Source of the DNA: Natronospira proteinivora
Lineage (GTDB): Bacteria; Pseudomonadota; Gammaproteobacteria; Natronospirales; Natronospiraceae
Assembly: GCF_024170465.1 (NCBI RefSeq)
Contig: NZ_JALJYF010000002.1
Span: 682,001 to 746,000, forward strand
Reading direction: 5' to 3'
DNA length: 64,000 bases
Position 1 is the first letter of the stretch. Every line of letters starts with the position of its first letter. The translations under genes were made by a program, and so were the position numbers. Below, one piece after another: positions 3,861-18,301 of this stretch. The notes beneath the pieces are model-generated. The model was not told the origin of the DNA and made no database searches. It was given only the letters and a program-made list of their open reading frames with translations.

Positions 3861-3863
3861 CTA
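3861..3863 (-). other. In-frame TAG codon interrupting the giant gene
   Basis: The codons read ...GAG CCA CCT AGA TAG GTT GTG ATC GGT... The residues before it (FITEPPR) and after it (VVIGQLLRYLPRVVDEAD) form the normal start of an Ig-like He_PIG domain, as in the preceding domain. The stop is thus inside a domain, not at a gene boundary. It may be a nonsense mutation, a sequencing error or a readthrough codon. Confidence 0.85.
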
Positions 3864-6800
3864 TCTAGGTGGCTCGGTAATAAACTCCATTCCGCGAAGC
3901 GGATCTTCAACAACGACTTCCAGGGAAATGGGCAACTCATTTCCTATGGAGTTCCGAACGATGACCTCAACATCATGACGACCTAGAGCCGTTCTTTCTG
4001 GAGACCACTCAAGGATTCCGGCTTCTGGTGAAAGACCCATTCCATCGGGCGCGGAAACGAGGTCGAAACATAGGGCACGATTATTGGGCTCATCAATTTG
4101 AATTATTTCGAAGAGGTCCTCCCCAGCCACCACAGACAGGGTTCCAGGGGAGGCCAAGGACATTGGCCCATCTTGTTCTGAGGCGACCGGGGTAAACCCC
4201 TCAACACCAGCAGGCAGCTCAACTCCGGAGCAAGCGCTCACAGCCCTGTCTCTTAGCAACAAGTTACCTTCGGCCTGAACTGCTCTCGGACCCGCTCCAA
4301 TCCATGCCTGCATGTCATTGTGTGTTACGCGGGTCTGAGGCAATCGCCCTGATTGGCTGATTTCGCCGAAAAAGAAATATCGGACCTGAGGGGTCCGTGA
4401 AAAGTAATCGAGCACAATAACCTCACCCGTACCGATGGAAGAGGAGATGTGAAGATCGCTGCCGTGCCTGGAGAATAGCGCCTCAACCTCTTCCTCGGGG
4501 ACCTCCTCCCGAATGACTACGATATTGTCGCCGCCGTAAGTGACAATTTTTTTATCGTCAAAATCAGGTCCAATCTCGAAAACTATCCCTTCTCTGGTCC
4601 ACTGACTGATCCGCGGGTCGTCTTCCAGATATAGATGATATTCCTGACCACCACCGGTGACCATGTAGTCATTGGCGCTGACGGACTTGATGCTTTGCGT
4701 AGCTAGCCGGGCGATCAGGAGCTCATCTTCATCACCTCCGGTCAAATGAATATTGTCAGCATCAGCAAGGCGCACGTCCTTTGCTGGTCGGATCTCTTCG
4801 GGTTTCAGTGTATCCATGAGATCAAAAATCTGCGGGCTCGTAATGAGGTCGCCATTGGCGAACTTGAACGCTGAGATTGTATTGTCTGCTTCGAAGAAAT
4901 AGCGGATCCGAAGCTTTTGTGCCTGACCGTCCAAAGGCACAAAAAGGTCATCACCCCGCCTCGATAGACTTTTCAGAAAGGACGCGGAGCTGACATTCTC
5001 ATCAAAGGCGACGAGATTGAATCCAGAGGTATCGGAAATAGTGGTTCGGCCGAAGAGGCTTGGAATATTATAAATATTATCCCCATCGCCCCCGATGATA
5101 AAATTCAATCCCGCCCCAGGATGCACTGTGGAATGATCATGGCCGGTTGTTATGAAGTCATCTTGGTTTGACGCTATGAGAGTCGCCCGGCCATGCTCTG
5201 GAACAGAGACCTCACCAGGCTTAGCAAGCTCGTCTAGAGCAATGCGATCTCTGACAGACAGCCAAAAATGAGTTTGCTCTTCCGGGACAGCGGTATCGAA
5301 TGATGAGAACAGTTGAGAGGCGGGTGTTCGTAGACTCGTACTCCCGCTATTAGTAAATTGCAAGGCCTCGATAGATTTGGCCTGCAAAAAATAGTCGATC
5401 ACGACGATTTCCGTCCCACTCTTCTCATGAAAAATAATGAGCGTATCGCCCATTTTTGACCACGAAACATCGGCGGGAGAAAATTGCTCGGAGAAGACGA
5501 TTTTATTACCGACCGAAGGCGCAAAGATTTGCGTTCTTCCATGGCCTGGCTCTATTTCAAAGATCACTTCCCCGTAAGGTGCGATAATGTAGTCGTCACC
5601 CGGGCTGCTTTGCATCCGGAATGTGGCGGCATCCTGGATGAGGATTTCATCATCAACGCTAGGGGCTAATAAGCCGGTGTCATCAGAAATATCGCTGATT
5701 GCGCGTTGCGGAGCGGCCTGTTCAGGTACATCCACCCCGAAAAGGTCGTATAACTGCCCGCTGCTCATAGTGTCGGCGGTTTCAAAGCGCAACTCGGCGA
5801 TGGTGTCATTGAAATCGAAGAAGGACTGGATGAAGACGGCTTGGTCGCGATTAGCGATTTCGATTCGCAGGTCCTGGCCATGGCGAATGAAACCACTGGC
5901 CACATCGGAGTAATTGATGCCTTGGCCGAAGTGCAGGATATTATGGCCGCCGCTTTCGATGATTCGGGTCTCACCTTCGCCACCCTCGACCAGATAATAA
6001 TTGTCGCCAGGGCCACCGAGGATGAAATCCTCGCCGCTTTCGATGCTGAACAGATAGTCACCATCGTCAGCAATTCGGATACTATTGGGGCCCGCAGCCG
6101 GGAGCGGTTCCAGGTGATCGCCAGGGCCATCACCATCATCGCCGTCGCCACCATCACCGCCGTCACCGCCGTCACCGGGATCATCACCATCTCCGTCATC
6201 ACCTCCACCGCCGTCTTCGTCTCCAGAATCATCGCCGCCGTCAGAGTCATCGTCACCGTCGTCGCCTTCAAAATGAAAACCTGGAGCGACGACGCGATAA
6301 GCCTGCTCATGATCAGGCGCGGGGCTGCTCATGACGTCGAACAGTTGTTCGGCCGTGATGACTTGGCCATTGGCGAATCGGATTTCGCTGATGGTATTAG
6401 CGCGGCTGAAGAATTCCCGAACTCGGACCTCGGCATCGCTGCTGGCATTCCCGAGAATCAAGTCGTCGTCTCGCCTTTGGAGCTGGGAGGCCACATCCGA
6501 GAAGGGCACGGTCTCATCGAACTGGATGATGTTGTGGCCAGTGGACGCGAAAATCAGGTTCTTGCCGTCATTAGCGCCCAACTCAAAGGTGACATCGCCG
6601 TTGGCAGCAACTAGGTAGTCATCGCCACCCAGGCCCCATAAACGGTCAATTCCTTCGTCCTGAATCAGAATATCGGGGCCGGGCGTTCCTTCCAGCAAGC
6701 CGCTGCCGTCGGCTTCAAGCCGCAAACTACGCGGTGCGCGCTCCGCAGTGGGCGGATTGACGCCAAAGACACCGAAGAGCTGGTCGGCGTTAAGGGGCTG

Positions 6801-7253
6801 GGCGTCAGAGAAATGGAACTCCGCAATAGTATTGACCAGGGAAAAGAAGTACTTGACGACAATCTGCTGATCGGTGTCCGCGACGTTCAGGATCAAATCG
6901 TCGCCGGAGCGCATCAGACCGCTGGAGATATCGAAAAAACTGATATCCGATCCGAATGCGACGATGTTTTGACCCTGCACTTCGGATATGGCCGTGCGGC
7001 TGTCTCCGGCATTGATGTGGTATTCGTTGTCACCTGGCCCACCGACCAAATAGTTCTGGCCCAGCCCTGGATAGAAGGCCGTATTTTCACTGCCACCGAC
7101 GATGAAATCGTCTGCATCGCTGCCGATGACTTCCACAGGGCCATACTCGGCACTAATAGCAGGCTCGGCATCAACCAGGAATGGGACCGTGACGACGACG
7201 AGAATGGCAAACAGAAACACGCACCCGACGGATGCAGGAAGCTGGACCTTCAT
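3861..7253 (-). CDS. N-terminal part of giant secreted protein with six RTX-derived repeats
   Basis: 1130 codons. I chose the ATG at 7253 because AGAGGGG lies just upstream and the protein then starts with a clear Sec signal peptide (MKVQLP, a hydrophobic core, then cleavage near VDA-EP). An ATG at 7307 would add 18 residues before the signal. Six units of about 120 residues follow (about 44-160, 190-320, 405-520, 535-655, 690-815, 830-960). Each ends in a YFF...NTI.E.rFaNG-like block typical of haemolysin-type calcium-binding-related domains. Odd units carry GGPGDNxY-like loops; even units carry ILIQD...DDYLVA. An Asp/Gly-rich linker spans about 330-381. An Ig-like He_PIG domain (about 1038-1125) precedes the TAG stop at 3861. 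The second copy of that domain continues in frame after the stop, so this looks like the broken front half of one gene. Probable role: calcium-binding surface or secreted adhesin. Confidence 0.8.
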   Translation of the reverse strand: MKVQLPASVGCVFLFAILVVVTVPFLVDAEPAISAEYGPVEVIGSDADDFIVGGSENTAFYPGLGQNYLVGGPGDNEYHINAGDSRTAISEVQGQNIVAFGSDISFFDISSGLMRSGDDLILNVADTDQQIVVKYFFSLVNTIAEFHFSDAQPLNADQLFGVFGVNPPTAERAPRSLRLEADGSGLLEGTPGPDILIQDEGIDRLWGLGGDDYLVAANGDVTFELGANDGKNLIFASTGHNIIQFDETVPFSDVASQLQRRDDDLILGNASSDAEVRVREFFSRANTISEIRFANGQVITAEQLFDVMSSPAPDHEQAYRVVAPGFHFEGDDGDDDSDGGDDSGDEDGGGGDDGDGDDPGDGGDGGDGGDGDDGDGPGDHLEPLPAAGPNSIRIADDGDYLFSIESGEDFILGGPGDNYYLVEGGEGETRIIESGGHNILHFGQGINYSDVASGFIRHGQDLRIEIANRDQAVFIQSFFDFNDTIAELRFETADTMSSGQLYDLFGVDVPEQAAPQRAISDISDDTGLLAPSVDDEILIQDAATFRMQSSPGDDYIIAPYGEVIFEIEPGHGRTQIFAPSVGNKIVFSEQFSPADVSWSKMGDTLIIFHEKSGTEIVVIDYFLQAKSIEALQFTNSGSTSLRTPASQLFSSFDTAVPEEQTHFWLSVRDRIALDELAKPGEVSVPEHGRATLIASNQDDFITTGHDHSTVHPGAGLNFIIGGDGDNIYNIPSLFGRTTISDTSGFNLVAFDENVSSASFLKSLSRRGDDLFVPLDGQAQKLRIRYFFEADNTISAFKFANGDLITSPQIFDLMDTLKPEEIRPAKDVRLADADNIHLTGGDEDELLIARLATQSIKSVSANDYMVTGGGQEYHLYLEDDPRISQWTREGIVFEIGPDFDDKKIVTYGGDNIVVIREEVPEEEVEALFSRHGSDLHISSSIGTGEVIVLDYFSRTPQVRYFFFGEISQSGRLPQTRVTHNDMQAWIGAGPRAVQAEGNLLLRDRAVSACSGVELPAGVEGFTPVASEQDGPMSLASPGTLSVVAGEDLFEIIQIDEPNNRALCFDLVSAPDGMGLSPEAGILEWSPERTALGRHDVEVIVRNSIGNELPISLEVVVEDPLRGMEFITEPPR

Positions 7254-7307
7254 CTTTTTCCCCTCTTGACCACCAAAATGGCCCAAAATAAAACCCCAAT
7301 AGGCCAA

Positions 7308-9801: not shown

Positions 9802-9871
9802 ACAGCCGGTTCCCGTGTGGAGGCCGGTGCCTCCCAGGCTCGGCCAAGCTGCACCACTGTCCGGAGCGTCA

Positions 9872-10594
9872 ATGCAAAGCAGTCAGCCCACCCCGCCCTA
9901 TCATCTGCGGGGCGATCGTATCGGCCGGGAATTCCTCCAGCTTTTGCCCATGGGCTTGTTCGTGGCCATCTTCGGCATCGCCTACGGACTGGCCGCGGTA
10001 CAAACCGGATTGGCCCCCTGGCAGGCCACCCTGATGAGCACCACGGTCTTCGCCGGAGCGGCCCAGTTCGCGGTCTTGGGCATGTGGGGCAGTGAGGTAG
10101 CCCTGCTGGCCATCATCGCCATCACCCTGGCCATCAACTCCCGCCACATCCTCATGGGCGCGGCCCTGTTCCCCATGCTGCAAAAGCTGCCCGCCGGCCG
10201 CCGTTACGGGCTGTTACTGCTATTGACCGATGCCAACTGGGCACGCAGCTATCAGCAATATCAAAGCGGGCGGGAGAATCTGGAGGCCATTATCGGCGGG
10301 GGGCTGGCCCTGTGGCTGGCATGGATCGCCGGCACCGCATTCGGCACCTATTTCGGCCGACTGCTGGCCGACCCCGAAGCCATGGGGCTGGACATGGTGC
10401 TGGGCTGTTTCCTGCTGGCCATGGCCCTGAGCGGTCCGCGCTCACGACGGATCCTGCTGGTCTGGCTGGTGGCGGGGGTGAGTGCGGTGCTGGCCTGGTA
10501 CTGGCTACCACCCCACGTGCATGTGGTGGTGGGGGCCCTGGCCGGTGGCCTGGTGGGGCTTTTCTGGCGGGAGAAACCCCATGTTCATGATTGA
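9872..10594 (+). CDS. azlC: AzlC-family branched-chain amino acid exporter subunit
   Basis: 240 residues from the ATG at 9872. An upstream in-frame ATG at 9815 would add an unconserved tail. It is an integral membrane protein with five or six hydrophobic segments and the AzlC signatures MGLFVAIFGIAYGLAAVQTGL-like and FAGAAQFA, followed by INSRHILMGAAL. AzlC and AzlD form an exporter for branched-chain amino acids or their analogues. The stop overlaps the start of azlD by 14 bases, so the two are translationally coupled. Confidence 0.88.
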   Translation: MQSSQPTPPYHLRGDRIGREFLQLLPMGLFVAIFGIAYGLAAVQTGLAPWQATLMSTTVFAGAAQFAVLGMWGSEVALLAIIAITLAINSRHILMGAALFPMLQKLPAGRRYGLLLLLTDANWARSYQQYQSGRENLEAIIGGGLALWLAWIAGTAFGTYFGRLLADPEAMGLDMVLGCFLLAMALSGPRSRRILLVWLVAGVSAVLAWYWLPPHVHVVVGALAGGLVGLFWREKPHVHD

Positions 10595-10895
10595 AACCAC
10601 GCCTCTGGGGATTCTCCTCATCATCGCGGTGATGACGGTGGTAACCATCGCCACCCGCTGGCTGGGCAGCTTTTTGATGGAACACATTCCCCTGAGTCCG
10701 AGGACCGAGCGCTTTATCGCGGCCATGGCCTCATCGGTGCTGATCGCGGTGGTAGTGCCCATGGCCGTCGCCGGGGATTGGGGTGCCCGGGCGGCATTGA
10801 TTACCACCGGGGCACTGGTGTTGATCAGTGGTCGGATTCTGCCGGCCATTGCCGCCGGCCTGGGTGCCGCCGCCCTGGTGCGTTACCTCTATTGA
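10581..10895 (+). CDS. azlD: AzlD-family small membrane subunit
   Basis: 104 residues, starting at ATG 10581 (or 10587, two codons later) inside the end of azlC. Three or four hydrophobic segments and the conserved TRWLGSF and MASSVLIAVV regions place it in the AzlD family. It is the small partner of AzlC. It ends 24 bases before the convergent ntrX stop. Confidence 0.86.
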   Translation: MFMIETTPLGILLIIAVMTVVTIATRWLGSFLMEHIPLSPRTERFIAAMASSVLIAVVVPMAVAGDWGARAALITTGALVLISGRILPAIAAGLGAAALVRYLY

Positions 10896-10919: not shown

Positions 10920-12287
10920 TCACTGATTCTTCTGGATTTCGATACCCAGGGCCTTGAGCTTGCGATAGAGATGGGTCCGTTCCAGGCCCACGCGCTCGGC
11001 CAGCTTGCCCACGCGCCCGCCACAGAGTTCCAGCTGCTGTTCCAGGTAGGCGCGCTCGAACCGCTCCCGGGCGTCCCGGAGGCTCAGCCCCAGAAGATCC
11101 TGTTTCACCAGGGGCTCCACCTCCCGCTCGGATTCCCGTCGCAGTTCGGCTTCCACATCCTCCAGTGAAATATCTTCCCGGTCCGACAGGGCCAGAAAGC
11201 GGTGGACCATGTTCTTCAACTCCCGGATATTGCCCGGCCAGGGGTAATTGCGCAGTCGGTTCTGGGCCCCCACGGAAAAACGCCGGAAGGGCAGGCCTTC
11301 CTGGTCCACCAGCACATCCACGTAATAGCGAATCAGGTCGGGGACATCCTCACGGTACTGGCGCAGCGGCGGGACCTGGACGGGCAGGACATCCAGCTGA
11401 TTAAGGAGGTCCTGACGGAACCGGCCAGCCTCCACGAGACGGGCAATAGTGGGTGGGGCCGATGCCACCAGACGAACATCCAGGGCCTCGCTCTGCTCAC
11501 TGCCCAGCGGGGTAAAACGCCTGGATTCCAACACCGACATCAACAGGCGCTGGACCTTTTCACTCATATCACCCAGCTCATTCAGGAACAGGGTCCCGCC
11601 CCGGGCCTTTTCCAGAAAACCCGGTTCCAGACTATCGCCCGCATGGCGACCAAACAGCTGGCTCTCGGCATCCTCATCCCGCAGGCTGCTGAGGATAACA
11701 TTGACAAAACGCGCCTCCCGCTGGGGGCTTTCCGAGTGCAGAAAACGGGCCAAGGTTTCCCGTCCGGTCCCGGCTTCACCCAGCAGCAGCACCGGGGAGC
11801 CCTCATCAGCAACCTTCTTGACCCGATCCCGGACCTGGCGCATCAAAGGCGACTTGCCCACCGGTTCCACCAGAGGAGAAAGAATGGAGCGGGCCTTGCG
11901 CCGTTCCCTTTCCTCGCGGCCGGACTCCAGGGCCTCGCCCACGATCTGCAGGAGCTTGGCCATGGACAGGGGCTTTTCCAGAAACTCATGGGCGCCCAGG
12001 CGGGTGGCCTCCACTGCCGTATCCACCGTACCGTGTCCCGACATGATCACCACTGGGCAATCCAGCTGACCGCTTCGGGACCAATCCCGCAGCAGTGTGA
12101 TGCCGTCCACATCCGGCATCCAGATATCCAGCAGGATCAGATCGATTTCCTCGGCATCATGGGCCCGTCGGGCCGCAGCCGCGTCCTCGGCCACGGTAAC
12201 CCGGTAGCCCTCATCCTCAAGGATATCCCGAACCATGCCGCGAATATCCGACTCATCATCCACCACCAGGATGTGGGCTGCGCTCAT
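10920..12287 (-). CDS. ntrX: NtrX-family response regulator with degenerate AAA+ domain
   Basis: 455 residues. The receiver domain (about 5-118) keeps the acidic pocket D10/D11, the phospho-acceptor D54 and K105. The central AAA+ domain (about 145-375) is altered. Walker A is GEAGTGRE, with Arg176 in place of the usual Lys. GDSLEP (217-222) stands where GAFTGA should be. Walker B is LFLNEL, with N236 for Asp. The sensor I Asn is Pro278, and the second arginine of FR.DL..RL is Gln297. A Fis-type helix-turn-helix closes the protein (about 410-450). It lies 64 bases after ntrY, its likely kinase. With these changes it is unlikely to hydrolyse ATP or to activate sigma-54 polymerase, so it may act as a phosphorylation-controlled DNA-binding protein; that is inference. 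Confidence 0.88.
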   Translation of the reverse strand: MSAAHILVVDDESDIRGMVRDILEDEGYRVTVAEDAAAARRAHDAEEIDLILLDIWMPDVDGITLLRDWSRSGQLDCPVVIMSGHGTVDTAVEATRLGAHEFLEKPLSMAKLLQIVGEALESGREERERRKARSILSPLVEPVGKSPLMRQVRDRVKKVADEGSPVLLLGEAGTGRETLARFLHSESPQREARFVNVILSSLRDEDAESQLFGRHAGDSLEPGFLEKARGGTLFLNELGDMSEKVQRLLMSVLESRRFTPLGSEQSEALDVRLVASAPPTIARLVEAGRFRQDLLNQLDVLPVQVPPLRQYREDVPDLIRYYVDVLVDQEGLPFRRFSVGAQNRLRNYPWPGNIRELKNMVHRFLALSDREDISLEDVEAELRRESEREVEPLVKQDLLGLSLRDARERFERAYLEQQLELCGGRVGKLAERVGLERTHLYRKLKALGIEIQKNQ

Positions 12288-12351: not shown

Positions 12352-14550
12352 TCAGGAAGTCTCCATCGGTGCATTAATGGGAATCTGCATGATGATCTGG
12401 GCCCCGCCGGCCTCACGGTTGCCCGCCCGGATCAGGCCCCCATGCTCCTCCACCAGTTTCTTCACGATGGCCAGGCCCAGGCCCGTTCCCTTGGGCTTGG
12501 TGGTGACATAGGGTTCAAAGACCGTATTGCCCATATCGTCGCCGAAACCGGGCCCGTCGTCCTCCACCACCACTTCCACCTGGTCGGTCTGGACATCGGA
12601 TACCAGACGGCGGCTGACAATTCGTACCCGGGCCCCGTCCTCGGACCGGGAAGCCTCCTGGGCGTTGCGAACCAGATTGTGCAGGGCCTGGCGGATACGC
12701 CCGGCGTCCGCCCGAACCCGCGGCAAGTCCGTATCGAGATCAAGGGAGAGATGGGGACCATCATCCAGTCCTCGATAGAGATCCGCCACCTCCATGATCA
12801 ACTGGTTGATATCCAGCAGGGTGAACTCCAGGTCGGGACTGCGGGCATAGTCGCTAAAGGCCTTGACCATGGCCTTGAGGGCCTCCACCTGCTGAACGAT
12901 GGTGTGGGTGGCCCGGTCCAGGGTACCGGCATCATCCACCCGCTCCAGATACTTGTGCCGAATCCGCTCCGCCGCCAGCTGGATGGGGGTCAGGGGATTA
13001 CGAATTTCATGGGCCAGTCGCCGGGCCACCTCCCCCCAGGCTGAATCCCGCTGTGCCTGGACCAGCATGGTGATATCGTCAAAAACGATCACATGACCCG
13101 GCTCGTCCTCGCCCGGGAACGGCAAGGCCTTGCAACGGCAGATGAGCAGTCGCCTCAGGGTGCGACCGGGCAGGGCCAGCTCTTCATGCCATTCGGCATC
13201 GCCCTGATGAATATGCGCCATAACCCGGTCGGCCAGCACCTTCAGGCGGGGCGAGGTGCCGGCCAGCTCCATCAGCGGCCGGCCGGTCTCCGGTAACAGC
13301 TCCAGTTCCAGAATCTGCTCGGCGGCAGCATTGGCCGCCCGAATCTTGAGATCGGAGTCCAGGGCAATCACCCCCGAGGTGAGTCGGGCGAGTACCGCCT
13401 CCAGATAAGCCCGCTCTGCTTCCACTTCCCGGCGGCTGCGCGCCGCCTGCTCCCGGGCCTCCTGCAAACGACGGGTCATTTCATTGAAGGACAGGGCGAG
13501 AAAGCCCACCTCATCATGGGCCCGTAGCGGTAATCGGGTGTCCAGCTCGCCCCGGGCCACGGCCCGGGTCCCGGCGGCCAAATCCTGGATCGGTGCCACC
13601 AGGCGACGAGCGAAGTGAAAGGCACCGACGATGGCCAGCAAAAGACTGAGCAGCAAAACCAGTGACAGGGTCAACACGAAACTGATGCGGATCGGCGCCC
13701 GATAGAAATCCAGCTCCCGGTATTGCTGCCAGGCGGTCTGGACCCGCTCGGCCAGCTGGCTCTGGCGGGCCGGCACCGGGAAACGGGCCTGCAGAATTCT
13801 GGGGGAAGCCAGTCGCTCCGGCTCCGGCAAAGTCACCAGGGCACGCACGTGGATCAGTTCCCCCTCGGCTTCCGGCGAATCCAGCCCCACATAACTGCCG
13901 CTGCGACGGGCCTGGCTGATCAACTCCCGGGGTGGCTGGCTGGGCAGAAAGCCCCGGCCGAACTCGCCGCTGGTGGCCAGTATCTGTCCATCACTGGAAA
14001 ACACGGTCAGTTCCGTGGCTTCCAGCTCACGACGATAGGACTCCAGCCGGGAGGCCAGAACATCCATCGAAAGTCCGGCCACATTCTGTGCCACCACTTC
14101 GGTCTGGGCTTCCTGATCCCGCATCCGGCTTTCCAGTGCGGCACGACTGAGGGCCAGGGATTCCTCCAGGGCCGACTCGATGCGGACATCAAACCAGGAA
14201 TCAATGCCCTTGGTGATGAACTGCAGGGAGAAATAGAACACCAGGATGACCGGCACGAGCGCCAGTACCGCAAAGACGCCGACAAAACGAGCGGTTAATC
14301 GGGAGCCGGGCCGACGAGCTCGGTACTGAATGATCAGATGACCGAGATTGAAACCCAGCAAGATGACCAGCAGGGCCACGCCCAGAATATTGAAGCCCAG
14401 CAACCAGTCGTGCAGGCGATCAAAATCAGTGGCCTCCCGCTGGGTGGTTTCCGCCAGCATCCAGAGCGCGGCCAGCATCAAGGCCAAGCCGAACAGCGTC
14501 AGCAGGGTAAGACCGAGTTTTCTCAGGAACGAAGGGTCCACTGATACCAT
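12352..14550 (-). CDS. ntrY: NtrY-family membrane sensor histidine kinase
   Basis: 732 residues. Three N-terminal membrane helices (about 14-33, 49-72, 89-112) are followed by a periplasmic segment and a fourth helix (about 290-312). Then come a HAMP linker, a PAS domain (LEAVLARLTSGVIALDSDLKI), a HisKA dimerisation domain with H514 in RLAHEIRNPLTPIQ, and a HATPase domain with N, DDGPGFG and GTGLGLAIVKK boxes. It should autophosphorylate and pass phosphate to NtrX. The start overlaps the DUF4390 gene by 28 bases. The periplasmic signal is unknown. Family knowledge links NtrYX to nitrogen, redox and envelope control in various proteobacteria. Confidence 0.9.
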   Translation of the reverse strand: MVSVDPSFLRKLGLTLLTLFGLALMLAALWMLAETTQREATDFDRLHDWLLGFNILGVALLVILLGFNLGHLIIQYRARRPGSRLTARFVGVFAVLALVPVILVFYFSLQFITKGIDSWFDVRIESALEESLALSRAALESRMRDQEAQTEVVAQNVAGLSMDVLASRLESYRRELEATELTVFSSDGQILATSGEFGRGFLPSQPPRELISQARRSGSYVGLDSPEAEGELIHVRALVTLPEPERLASPRILQARFPVPARQSQLAERVQTAWQQYRELDFYRAPIRISFVLTLSLVLLLSLLLAIVGAFHFARRLVAPIQDLAAGTRAVARGELDTRLPLRAHDEVGFLALSFNEMTRRLQEAREQAARSRREVEAERAYLEAVLARLTSGVIALDSDLKIRAANAAAEQILELELLPETGRPLMELAGTSPRLKVLADRVMAHIHQGDAEWHEELALPGRTLRRLLICRCKALPFPGEDEPGHVIVFDDITMLVQAQRDSAWGEVARRLAHEIRNPLTPIQLAAERIRHKYLERVDDAGTLDRATHTIVQQVEALKAMVKAFSDYARSPDLEFTLLDINQLIMEVADLYRGLDDGPHLSLDLDTDLPRVRADAGRIRQALHNLVRNAQEASRSEDGARVRIVSRRLVSDVQTDQVEVVVEDDGPGFGDDMGNTVFEPYVTTKPKGTGLGLAIVKKLVEEHGGLIRAGNREAGGAQIIMQIPINAPMETS

Positions 14551-15226: not shown

Positions 15227-16549
15227 TCACGCCCGCTTCGGCTTTCCGGTTTTCTCCAGAGCCCCATAGTAAAAGCCGTCCCCTCCATCGATCCGGGGCA
15301 GGTACTGGATTCCGGGGCCGGCTGGCACGGCCGCAGGCAATGTCAGGGATTGGGGCAAGGCATCCGGTTGCGCTGCCAGGAAACGCTCAAGAACGCCCTC
15401 GTTTTCCTGCCGAAAAATGGAGCAGGTGGTATAGAGCAGACGTCCGCCCGGCGCCAGCATGGACCAGGCCCCCGCCAGGATCGCGGCCTGCTTTTCCGCC
15501 AGGCCAGCTGCGTCATTCGACCGGCGCAGATACTTGATATCCGGATGGCGCCGAATCACGCCCGTGCCGGAACAGGGCACGTCCAGCAGGATGCGATCAA
15601 AGGACTCGCCATCCCACCATGACTCGGGATGGGCCACATCCCCCGCCCGAATGTCCGCCGACAAGCCAAGGCGATCGAGATTCTCGCGAACCCGCCCCAG
15701 TCGATCCGGATCGACATCCAGGGCCAGCATATGAGCGATGTCCGGACAGGACTCCAGCATATGGGCGGTCTTGCCACCGGGGGCAGCACAGGCATCCAGC
15801 ACCCGCTGGCCGGGAGCCAACTGCATCAGTCCGGCCACCTGCTGGGCAGATTCGTCCTGAACAGAAAAGAGGCCCTCGGCAAAGCCGGGTAACTGATCCA
15901 CGCTGCAAGGCTGTGACAGCCAGACCGCGTCCGGGGCATGGGGTCCAGGGCGAGCCTCGATGTCGGCCTCGGCTAGTCGTGCCAGAAAGGCATCCCGCCC
16001 GCCCTGCTGCTGATTGACTCGCAGAATCATGGGGGGCGGGGCGTTGCCCGCCGCCAGAATGCCTTCCCAGTCCCCGGGCCAATCCGACTGACATTGGCGA
16101 ATCAACCATTCCGGATGCTGCCATCGGGCGGTGGGAACGGCTTCAGCAGCCTCCCAGAGGGCTTCCTTTTCGCGCTGGAAACGGCGCAAAACGGCATTCA
16201 CCAGACCGGCCGCGCGGGGCCGGCCCAAGGCTCGGGCCGCCTCCACGGTTTCAGACAGAGCCGCATGGGTGGGAACGCGGGTGGCGACCAGTTGGTGAAG
16301 CCCCAGCAGCATCACGGCATTGATAATGCGGTCCCGCTTACGTAGGGGTTTGTCCAGCAGGCGGCCCAGTATCCACTCCAGCCTTGGACCCTGACGCAGG
16401 GTACCGAACACCAGGGCCTGCAACAGGGCCCCATCACGGGCCGACAAGCCCTGGCGGGCCCGCGGCAGGCGATCGCTGAGGCTTGCCTGCTCCGCCATGA
16501 CAGCGTGAATCAATTCGGCGGCCCGGGCCCGGGTGTCGGCTTTTTTCAT
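15227..16549 (-). CDS. rsmB: 16S rRNA (cytosine-967-C5)-methyltransferase
   Basis: 440 residues. An N-terminal NusB-like domain (about 1-140) is followed by a Rossmann SAM-dependent methyltransferase domain with the SAM loop [32 protein letters not shown] carrying the release Cys, and [14 protein letters not shown] carrying the catalytic Cys. It methylates C967 of 16S rRNA. It overlaps the end of fmt by four bases (ATGA), showing translational coupling within the def-fmt-rsmB operon. Confidence 0.96.
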
Positions 16550-18074: not shown

Positions 18075-18301
18075 GACGGCTCCGACGCGAAACGGATTGG
18101 TAAAATTCGTGCAATTCCAGATAGATTGCTGCTATTGTTACTATTGTACTAGAAACCGACCCGAATCTGCAGGCCGCTCAATGCCTGAGACAAGCCGAGC
18201 GGCAGGGGGTTCCGAGCCTGACAGGCGCAGCCGAAACCGCCCACCTCGAGCGGTTTCGTAACACAGCATCAGCAAGTATAGGACGAGGGGAGCGAACGAT
18301 C
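18075..18301. promoter_or_regulatory. Divergent spacer between def and the LysM gene
   Basis: The spacer must hold promoters for both directions. TACAAT on the minus strand (18143-18148) is a plausible -10 box for def, but no good -35 lies 16-18 bases upstream. AGGACGAGGGGAGCGA before 18302 contains a purine-rich ribosome-binding site for the LysM gene. No other feature is seen. Confidence 0.3.

Follow-up and report, generated by a model that had tools for sequence, protein, structure and literature searches.

Erosion of the AAA+ domain in an NtrX response regulator of Natronospira proteinivora

The window, a 64,000-nucleotide stretch of the Natronospira proteinivora genome, carries the gene order def-fmt-rsmB-plrP(DUF4390)-ntrY-ntrX, the whole set lying on the minus strand; def, fmt, and rsmB were identified from their own sequence. 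This order is also present in genomes of the same genus and order. The ntrX reading frame runs from 12287 to 10920 on the minus strand, and the plus-strand reading of the same stretch is interrupted. The genes of the block and the domains of NtrX are as follows:

15227..16549, minus strand: rsmB, 16S rRNA methyltransferase, start of the rsmB-plrP-ntrY-ntrX block (translated sequence, and the block in PMC13001219)
14523..15230, minus strand: plrP-like gene for a DUF4390 protein with a signal-peptide-like N terminus (Pfam PF14334)
12352..14550, minus strand: ntrY, cognate membrane histidine kinase (Pfam NtrY_N, HAMP, HisKA, HATPase_c)
10920..12287, minus strand: ntrX, response regulator of 455 aa, receiver (REC) - AAA+ - Fis-type HTH (open reading frame and Pfam)
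11940..12272, minus strand: receiver domain, residues 6-116, phospho-acceptor Asp54 at 12126-12128 (Pfam PF00072)
11379..11861, minus strand: AAA+ core, residues 143-303, eroded (Pfam PF00158)
11121..11363, minus strand: AAA+ lid, residues 309-389, sensor II Arg355 kept (Pfam PF25601)
10950..11069, minus strand: Fis-type HTH, residues 407-446, with the RTHLYR recognition segment (Pfam PF02954)

In Bordetella, a three-part system is encoded by the rsmB-plrP-plrSR block, and its periplasmic member PlrP holds the kinase's phosphatase activity in check (PMC13001219). Judging from synteny and this role of PlrP, the DUF4390 protein is a probable third component of the NtrYX system. Within the genus, ntrX is more strongly conserved (83%) than rsmB (60-64%) or fmt (63-67%), indicating that ntrX is in use.

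Annotations usually present NtrX as a sigma-54 activator that regulates nitrogen assimilation. The window protein matched the AAA+ sigma-54 interaction fold (PF00158) at 132.7 bits. Its best NCBIfam match was NF051870 (NtrX) at 414.2 bits, under the curated equivalog cut-off of 600 bits, which is an annotation threshold and not a biological trait. The protein has a receiver with phospho-acceptor Asp and switch residues, an ntrY neighbour within the rsmB-plrP-ntrYX layout known from beta/gamma-proteobacteria, and an HTH with RTHLYR, features that mark it as NtrX. It is a divergent NtrX that falls under the curated cut-off, its orthology being established by synteny and the tree. The initial annotation had described the receiver and DNA-binding domains as intact; D10, D11, D54, S83, K105, and the HTH are indeed all present.

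The AAA+ sites were assigned by aligning window NtrX with the canonical enhancer-binding proteins of the same genome. The changed sites are:

11760..11780, minus strand: Walker A GEAGTGR, residues 170-176, Arg176 replacing Lys
11622..11639, minus strand: GDSLEP, residues 217-222, remnant of a shortened L1 (GAFTGA) loop
11580..11582, minus strand: Asn236 replacing the Walker B Asp
11454..11459, minus strand: sensor I Ala277-Pro278 replacing Thr-Asn/His/Arg
11397..11399, minus strand: Gln297 replacing the second Arg of the arginine-finger region

All five changes named in the initial annotation (Arg176, loss of GAFTGA, Asn236, Pro278, and Gln297) were recovered at the residues given there. The Walker B motif, LFLNE, carries Asn236 where Asp is canonical and retains Glu237; sensor I is SAPP, whose Pro278 occupies the Asn/His/Arg position; and in the arginine-finger region, FRQDLLNQL, Arg291 remains and Gln297 takes the place of the second Arg. 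Beyond those five changes, sensor I has lost its canonical Thr as well (Ala277). The annotation had taken GAFTGA to be replaced by GDSLEP. The motif is gone, but the L1 loop that contacts sigma-54 has been shortened by 5 residues and not altered by substitution: the P-loop and Walker B are 68 residues apart in window NtrX versus 73 in NtrC. Window NtrX therefore has neither the GAFTGA loop 1 nor the Walker A Lys, Walker B Asp-Glu pair, sensor I, and arginine finger of a sigma-54 activator. It keeps the P-loop glycines, Glu237, Arg291, and sensor II Arg355. We also considered that the motifs had shifted elsewhere or that the alignment was an artefact. This was ruled out: in all 161 orthologues, and in Brucella NtrX too, the sites fall in matching alignment columns.

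These orthologues were drawn from loci adjoining ntrY and from named genome contigs, which gave 166 distinct NtrX sequences, 161 of them with a scorable AAA+ domain; outside the site counts were L116 and L117 (no AAA+ domain), L074 (cut by a contig end), and L093 and L107 (large AAA+ gaps). A GAFTGA-like motif was found in none of the 161, and all six scored catalytic positions were intact in only 12, window NtrX having lost four of the six. The proposed check for clade-wide loss thus showed that the loss is family-wide and not peculiar to the window gene. Receiver residues D10, D11, D54, and K105 were present in 166/166 sequences, and HTH residues R437/T438 in 165/166. An eroding AAA+ domain is the normal, gradual state of the whole NtrX family in these bacteria and not the mark of a broken gene. 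The joint alteration of several catalytic residues would be expected of a pseudogene or of a sequencing or assembly artefact. However, the frame is open, independent genomes of the genus and order are in the same state, and purifying selection is strong; the probability of either is negligible, and the orthologues together with the selection pattern refute a pseudogene.

Selection was measured as pairwise dN/dS within the genus, from three genomes by a simple counting method at synonymous divergence near 0.6-1.1. On this basis the value in NtrX was highest in the AAA+ core (0.20-0.25), lower in the receiver (about 0.10) and lid (0.07-0.11), and lowest in the HTH (0.01-0.05), whereas NtrC of the same three genomes gave 0.07-0.09 for AAA+, 0.18-0.37 for the receiver, and 0.25-0.42 for the HTH. 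Mean identity across ten genomes of the window's order followed the same pattern: 0.52 for AAA+ and 0.89 for the HTH in NtrX, versus 0.79 and 0.60 in NtrC. AAA+ is thus the fastest-evolving domain of NtrX and the slowest of NtrC. These opposite domain rates indicate that constraint on NtrX has shifted away from the motor and onto the receiver and DNA-reading helix. The NtrX AAA+ fold is nevertheless still under purifying selection (dN/dS about 0.2). NtrC keeps the AAA+ motifs in the same genomes, and the NtrC of the window genome is intact.

At the far end of the series, NtrX has no AAA+ domain at all; it is 230 aa long in G124 and 191 aa in G126. Among 41 sampled genomes of the order of G124, which from its gene order is probably Burkholderiales-like, the matching frames were shorter than 300 aa in ten and at least 419 aa in the other 31. 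Nineteen full-length NtrX proteins of this order, matched by Pfam mainly as PF14532, had lost the sensor II Arg, and 18/19 had lost the Walker A Lys/Arg; their L1 region falls short of that of window NtrX by about ten residues, and RTHLYRK is intact in 19/19. Beta-proteobacterial NtrX is said to lack the AAA+ domain (PMC13001219). If the order of G124 is beta-proteobacterial, that absence holds only for a minority (about a quarter) of the sampled genomes. The full-length proteins of loci L253-L271, in which the nucleotide pocket is almost unrecognisable, sit badly with that statement.

Besides rpoN, the gene for sigma-54, the window genome codes for at least seven activator domains of the sigma-54 type that carry GAFTGA or something close to it. 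Since sigma-54 and an intact NtrC are both present, the change in NtrX did not come from losing the sigma-54 system. With regard to sigma-54 INDEPENDENCE, NtrX is present in G126, a single-contig genome with a completeness score of 100%, which does not figure in the set of genomes with a detected rpoN. In the window's order, rpoN was not detected by two Pfam domains in the near-complete draft genomes G005 and G012 (99 and 98% complete), both of which have NtrX. G005 and G012 also carry NtrC; their rpoN is either lost or in an assembly gap.

The initial annotation had viewed the protein as probably a phospho-switch with no remaining part in driving sigma-54 transcription. The absence of GAFTGA from 161 sequences, the repeated loss of hydrolysis residues, and the highest constraint on receiver and HTH all support this view, and on sequence grounds NtrX of this class cannot be a sigma-54 activator. 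A sigma-54 role could in principle persist if window NtrX joined NtrC or another intact enhancer-binding protein in hetero-oligomers, and the rpoN gene and the GAFTGA-type domains of the genome would make partners available. However, the HTH sequences of NtrX and NtrC differ, window NtrX no longer has the AAA+ interface residue at position 297, and G126, G005, and G012 keep NtrX with no detectable rpoN. Such hetero-oligomers are therefore very improbable.

We consider it very probable that window NtrX is a phosphorylation-controlled, sigma-54-independent DNA-binding regulator whose AAA+ domain serves as a non-hydrolysing scaffold and may still hold nucleotide. NtrY, modulated by the DUF4390/PlrP protein, would phosphorylate Asp54, and phosphorylation would alter self-association and DNA binding through the Fis-type HTH. 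NtrX would then activate or repress ordinary (sigma-70-type) promoters with neither sigma-54 contact nor an ATP-hydrolysis cycle; between receiver and HTH, the AAA+ domain would persist as a folded scaffold whose Arg-containing P-loop may still take up nucleotide. The loss of L1 and of hydrolysis residues, the retained receiver, HTH, and P-loop, and the selection pattern were observed directly; from these we infer action at sigma-70 promoters, service as a scaffold, and nucleotide binding by window NtrX. Precedents exist for the main steps: in Rhodobacter and Caulobacter, NtrC proteins that lack GAFTGA work at sigma-70 promoters (PMC10274813), and phosphorylated Sinorhizobium NtrX binds promoters directly and needs its Asp to do so (PMC9223101). 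The order of G124, where AAA+ mostly lacks the Walker A Lys/Arg or is deleted and the HTH is unchanged, also supports this reading of window NtrX. Against the reading stand the presence of sigma-54 in the window genome, which by gene content would permit a sigma-54 link, the intact Glu237, Arg291, and Arg355, and the absence of CAAN2-5TTG and GCAN9TGC from the region upstream of the operon.

A quick maximum-likelihood tree of NtrX, built with the scored columns removed, grouped window NtrX with Woeseiaceae, Steroidobacteraceae, and Thioalkalivibrio sp. XN8 in a clade of 36 rows (SH-aLRT 98). All 36 members have GxxGxGR as Walker A, and sensor I position 277 is Ala, Val, or Ile in 35/36. The minimum numbers of changes on the tree were 12 at the Walker A residue, 26 at the Walker B Asp, and 20 at the finger Arg. 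None of six pairings of catalytic sites showed significantly correlated loss, informative pairs being few.

An AlphaFold2 model of window NtrX from ten sequences had a mean pLDDT of 77, with most of the AAA+ core at 85-93. Its closest solved relative is Brucella NtrX (5m7n, Z 29-29.5), although other full-length NtrC-family regulators score equally well. Among the Brucella structures are complexes with ATP and with ADP (5m7n, 5m7p); binding of nucleotide in the absence of GAFTGA is thus an established property of the family, albeit from a member whose pocket is canonical.

The AAA+ domain of window NtrX had been called dead-looking. This fits the predicted loss of hydrolysis; it fits nucleotide binding less well, as the P-loop glycines are nearly always kept and the Walker A residue is Lys or Arg in 154/161 orthologues (96 Lys, 58 Arg, 7 other). 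Proteins with a Lys-to-Arg change in Walker A sometimes remain weakly active, which counts against a loss of ATPase. Weighted frequencies were 0.95-1.0 for the three P-loop glycines (GxxGxG) and 0.76 for the sensor II Arg, versus 0.34 for the Walker B Asp and 0.28 for the second Arg of the finger region; the Glu after the Walker B Asp stood at 0.52 (Asp 0.30).

Within the preferred reading of a sigma-54-independent regulator, the AAA+ domain admits two sub-readings. The first takes it as a nucleotide sensor, in which the Arg P-loop binds ATP or ADP with no turnover, and nucleotide and phosphorylation together set the oligomeric state or DNA binding. The selective retention described above points this way, as do the fixation of Arg throughout the window's clade and the nucleotides bound by Brucella NtrX in crystals; Rhodobacter capsulatus NtrC at sigma-70 promoters needs ATP binding and not hydrolysis (cited in PMC10274813). 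However, the glycines may be kept only for the fold of the loop, and in the order of G124 nearly all full-length proteins have lost Lys/Arg and about one genome in four lacks the domain itself, which means that NtrX does not depend on nucleotide as a general rule. We give this sub-reading somewhat less than an even chance. The second takes the domain as a pure relic with no ligand and no regulatory input, its fold kept only since the protein would suffer from its unfolding. In favour, no domain of NtrX evolves faster than AAA+, its catalytic residues were lost many times with no detectable association between sites, and some lineages deleted it; yet a relic would not be expected to keep Lys/Arg so widely or fix Arg in a 36-member clade, and its dN/dS is still about 0.2. 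This is quite possible, falling a little short of probable. A narrower proposal for the 36-member clade seems rather unlikely: that its NtrX is a non-hydrolysing nucleotide sensor whose Arg P-loop and sensor I Ala/Val bind ATP or ADP and so gate phospho-dependent DNA binding at sigma-70 promoters.

Alpha-proteobacterial NtrX (Brucella abortus 5m7n/5m7o/5m7p, Caulobacter, Sinorhizobium) resembles window NtrX in domain order, NtrY partner, absence of GAFTGA, and full-length fold. However, Brucella NtrX keeps the Walker A Lys, Walker B Asp-Glu, and arginine finger, which window NtrX does not, and ntrYX follows ntrBC in alpha-proteobacteria (PMC13001219) but rsmB-plrP in the window. Beta-proteobacterial PlrR/NtrX (Bordetella PlrPSR, Herbaspirillum NtrYX) shares the rsmB-plrP-ntrY-ntrX order (PMC13001219), the receiver, and the HTH; it reportedly lacks AAA+, whereas window NtrX has a recognisable one, and both states occur in the sampled order of G124. 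The GAFTGA-less NtrC of Rhodobacter and Caulobacter, which works at sigma-70-type promoters, shares the L1 deletion with window NtrX (PMC10274813), but NtrC is paralogous to NtrX and that of Caulobacter keeps and needs the Walker A Lys and Walker B Asp. VpsR of Vibrio cholerae and FleQ are structural neighbours of the window NtrX model. Both are AAA+ regulators able to act with no sigma-54 contact, and both are c-di-GMP effectors.

The loss of GAFTGA in NtrX is already known. New here are the graded erosion, the inverted constraint relative to NtrC, and the Arg-P-loop clade, no description of which was found in the searchable literature, a body that excludes most subscription journals. NtrX forms a natural series, from an intact pocket with no GAFTGA, through an Arg P-loop and then no pocket, to no AAA+ domain, while the DNA-reading helix stays nearly constant. 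The series thus allows a direct test of the part that an AAA+ domain plays in a response regulator once its sigma-54 work has ceased.

Neither CAAN2-5TTG nor GCAN9TGC, the known NtrX sites, was found upstream of def, the probable operon head, in four genomes. Between the SPOR/argS pair and ntrX, the window carries azlC/azlD (branched-chain amino-acid exporter, 9815-10895, plus strand), which was not seen at the corresponding place in the stretches of four relatives, among which that of G002 stops soon past ntrX and is a weak test. The window also encodes a long, repetitive, secreted-looking protein of 1148 aa (3861-7307, minus strand) with repeated GGxGDN/GDDYL-type calcium-binding-like segments. 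Upstream of def (minus strand), at about 18090-18160, a block of ~55 bp is near-identical in three genomes of the genus and partly so in G005, within a divergent intergenic region that shows no other conservation. This block likely serves the def...ntrYX operon or the divergent LysM gene as a promoter or regulator site.
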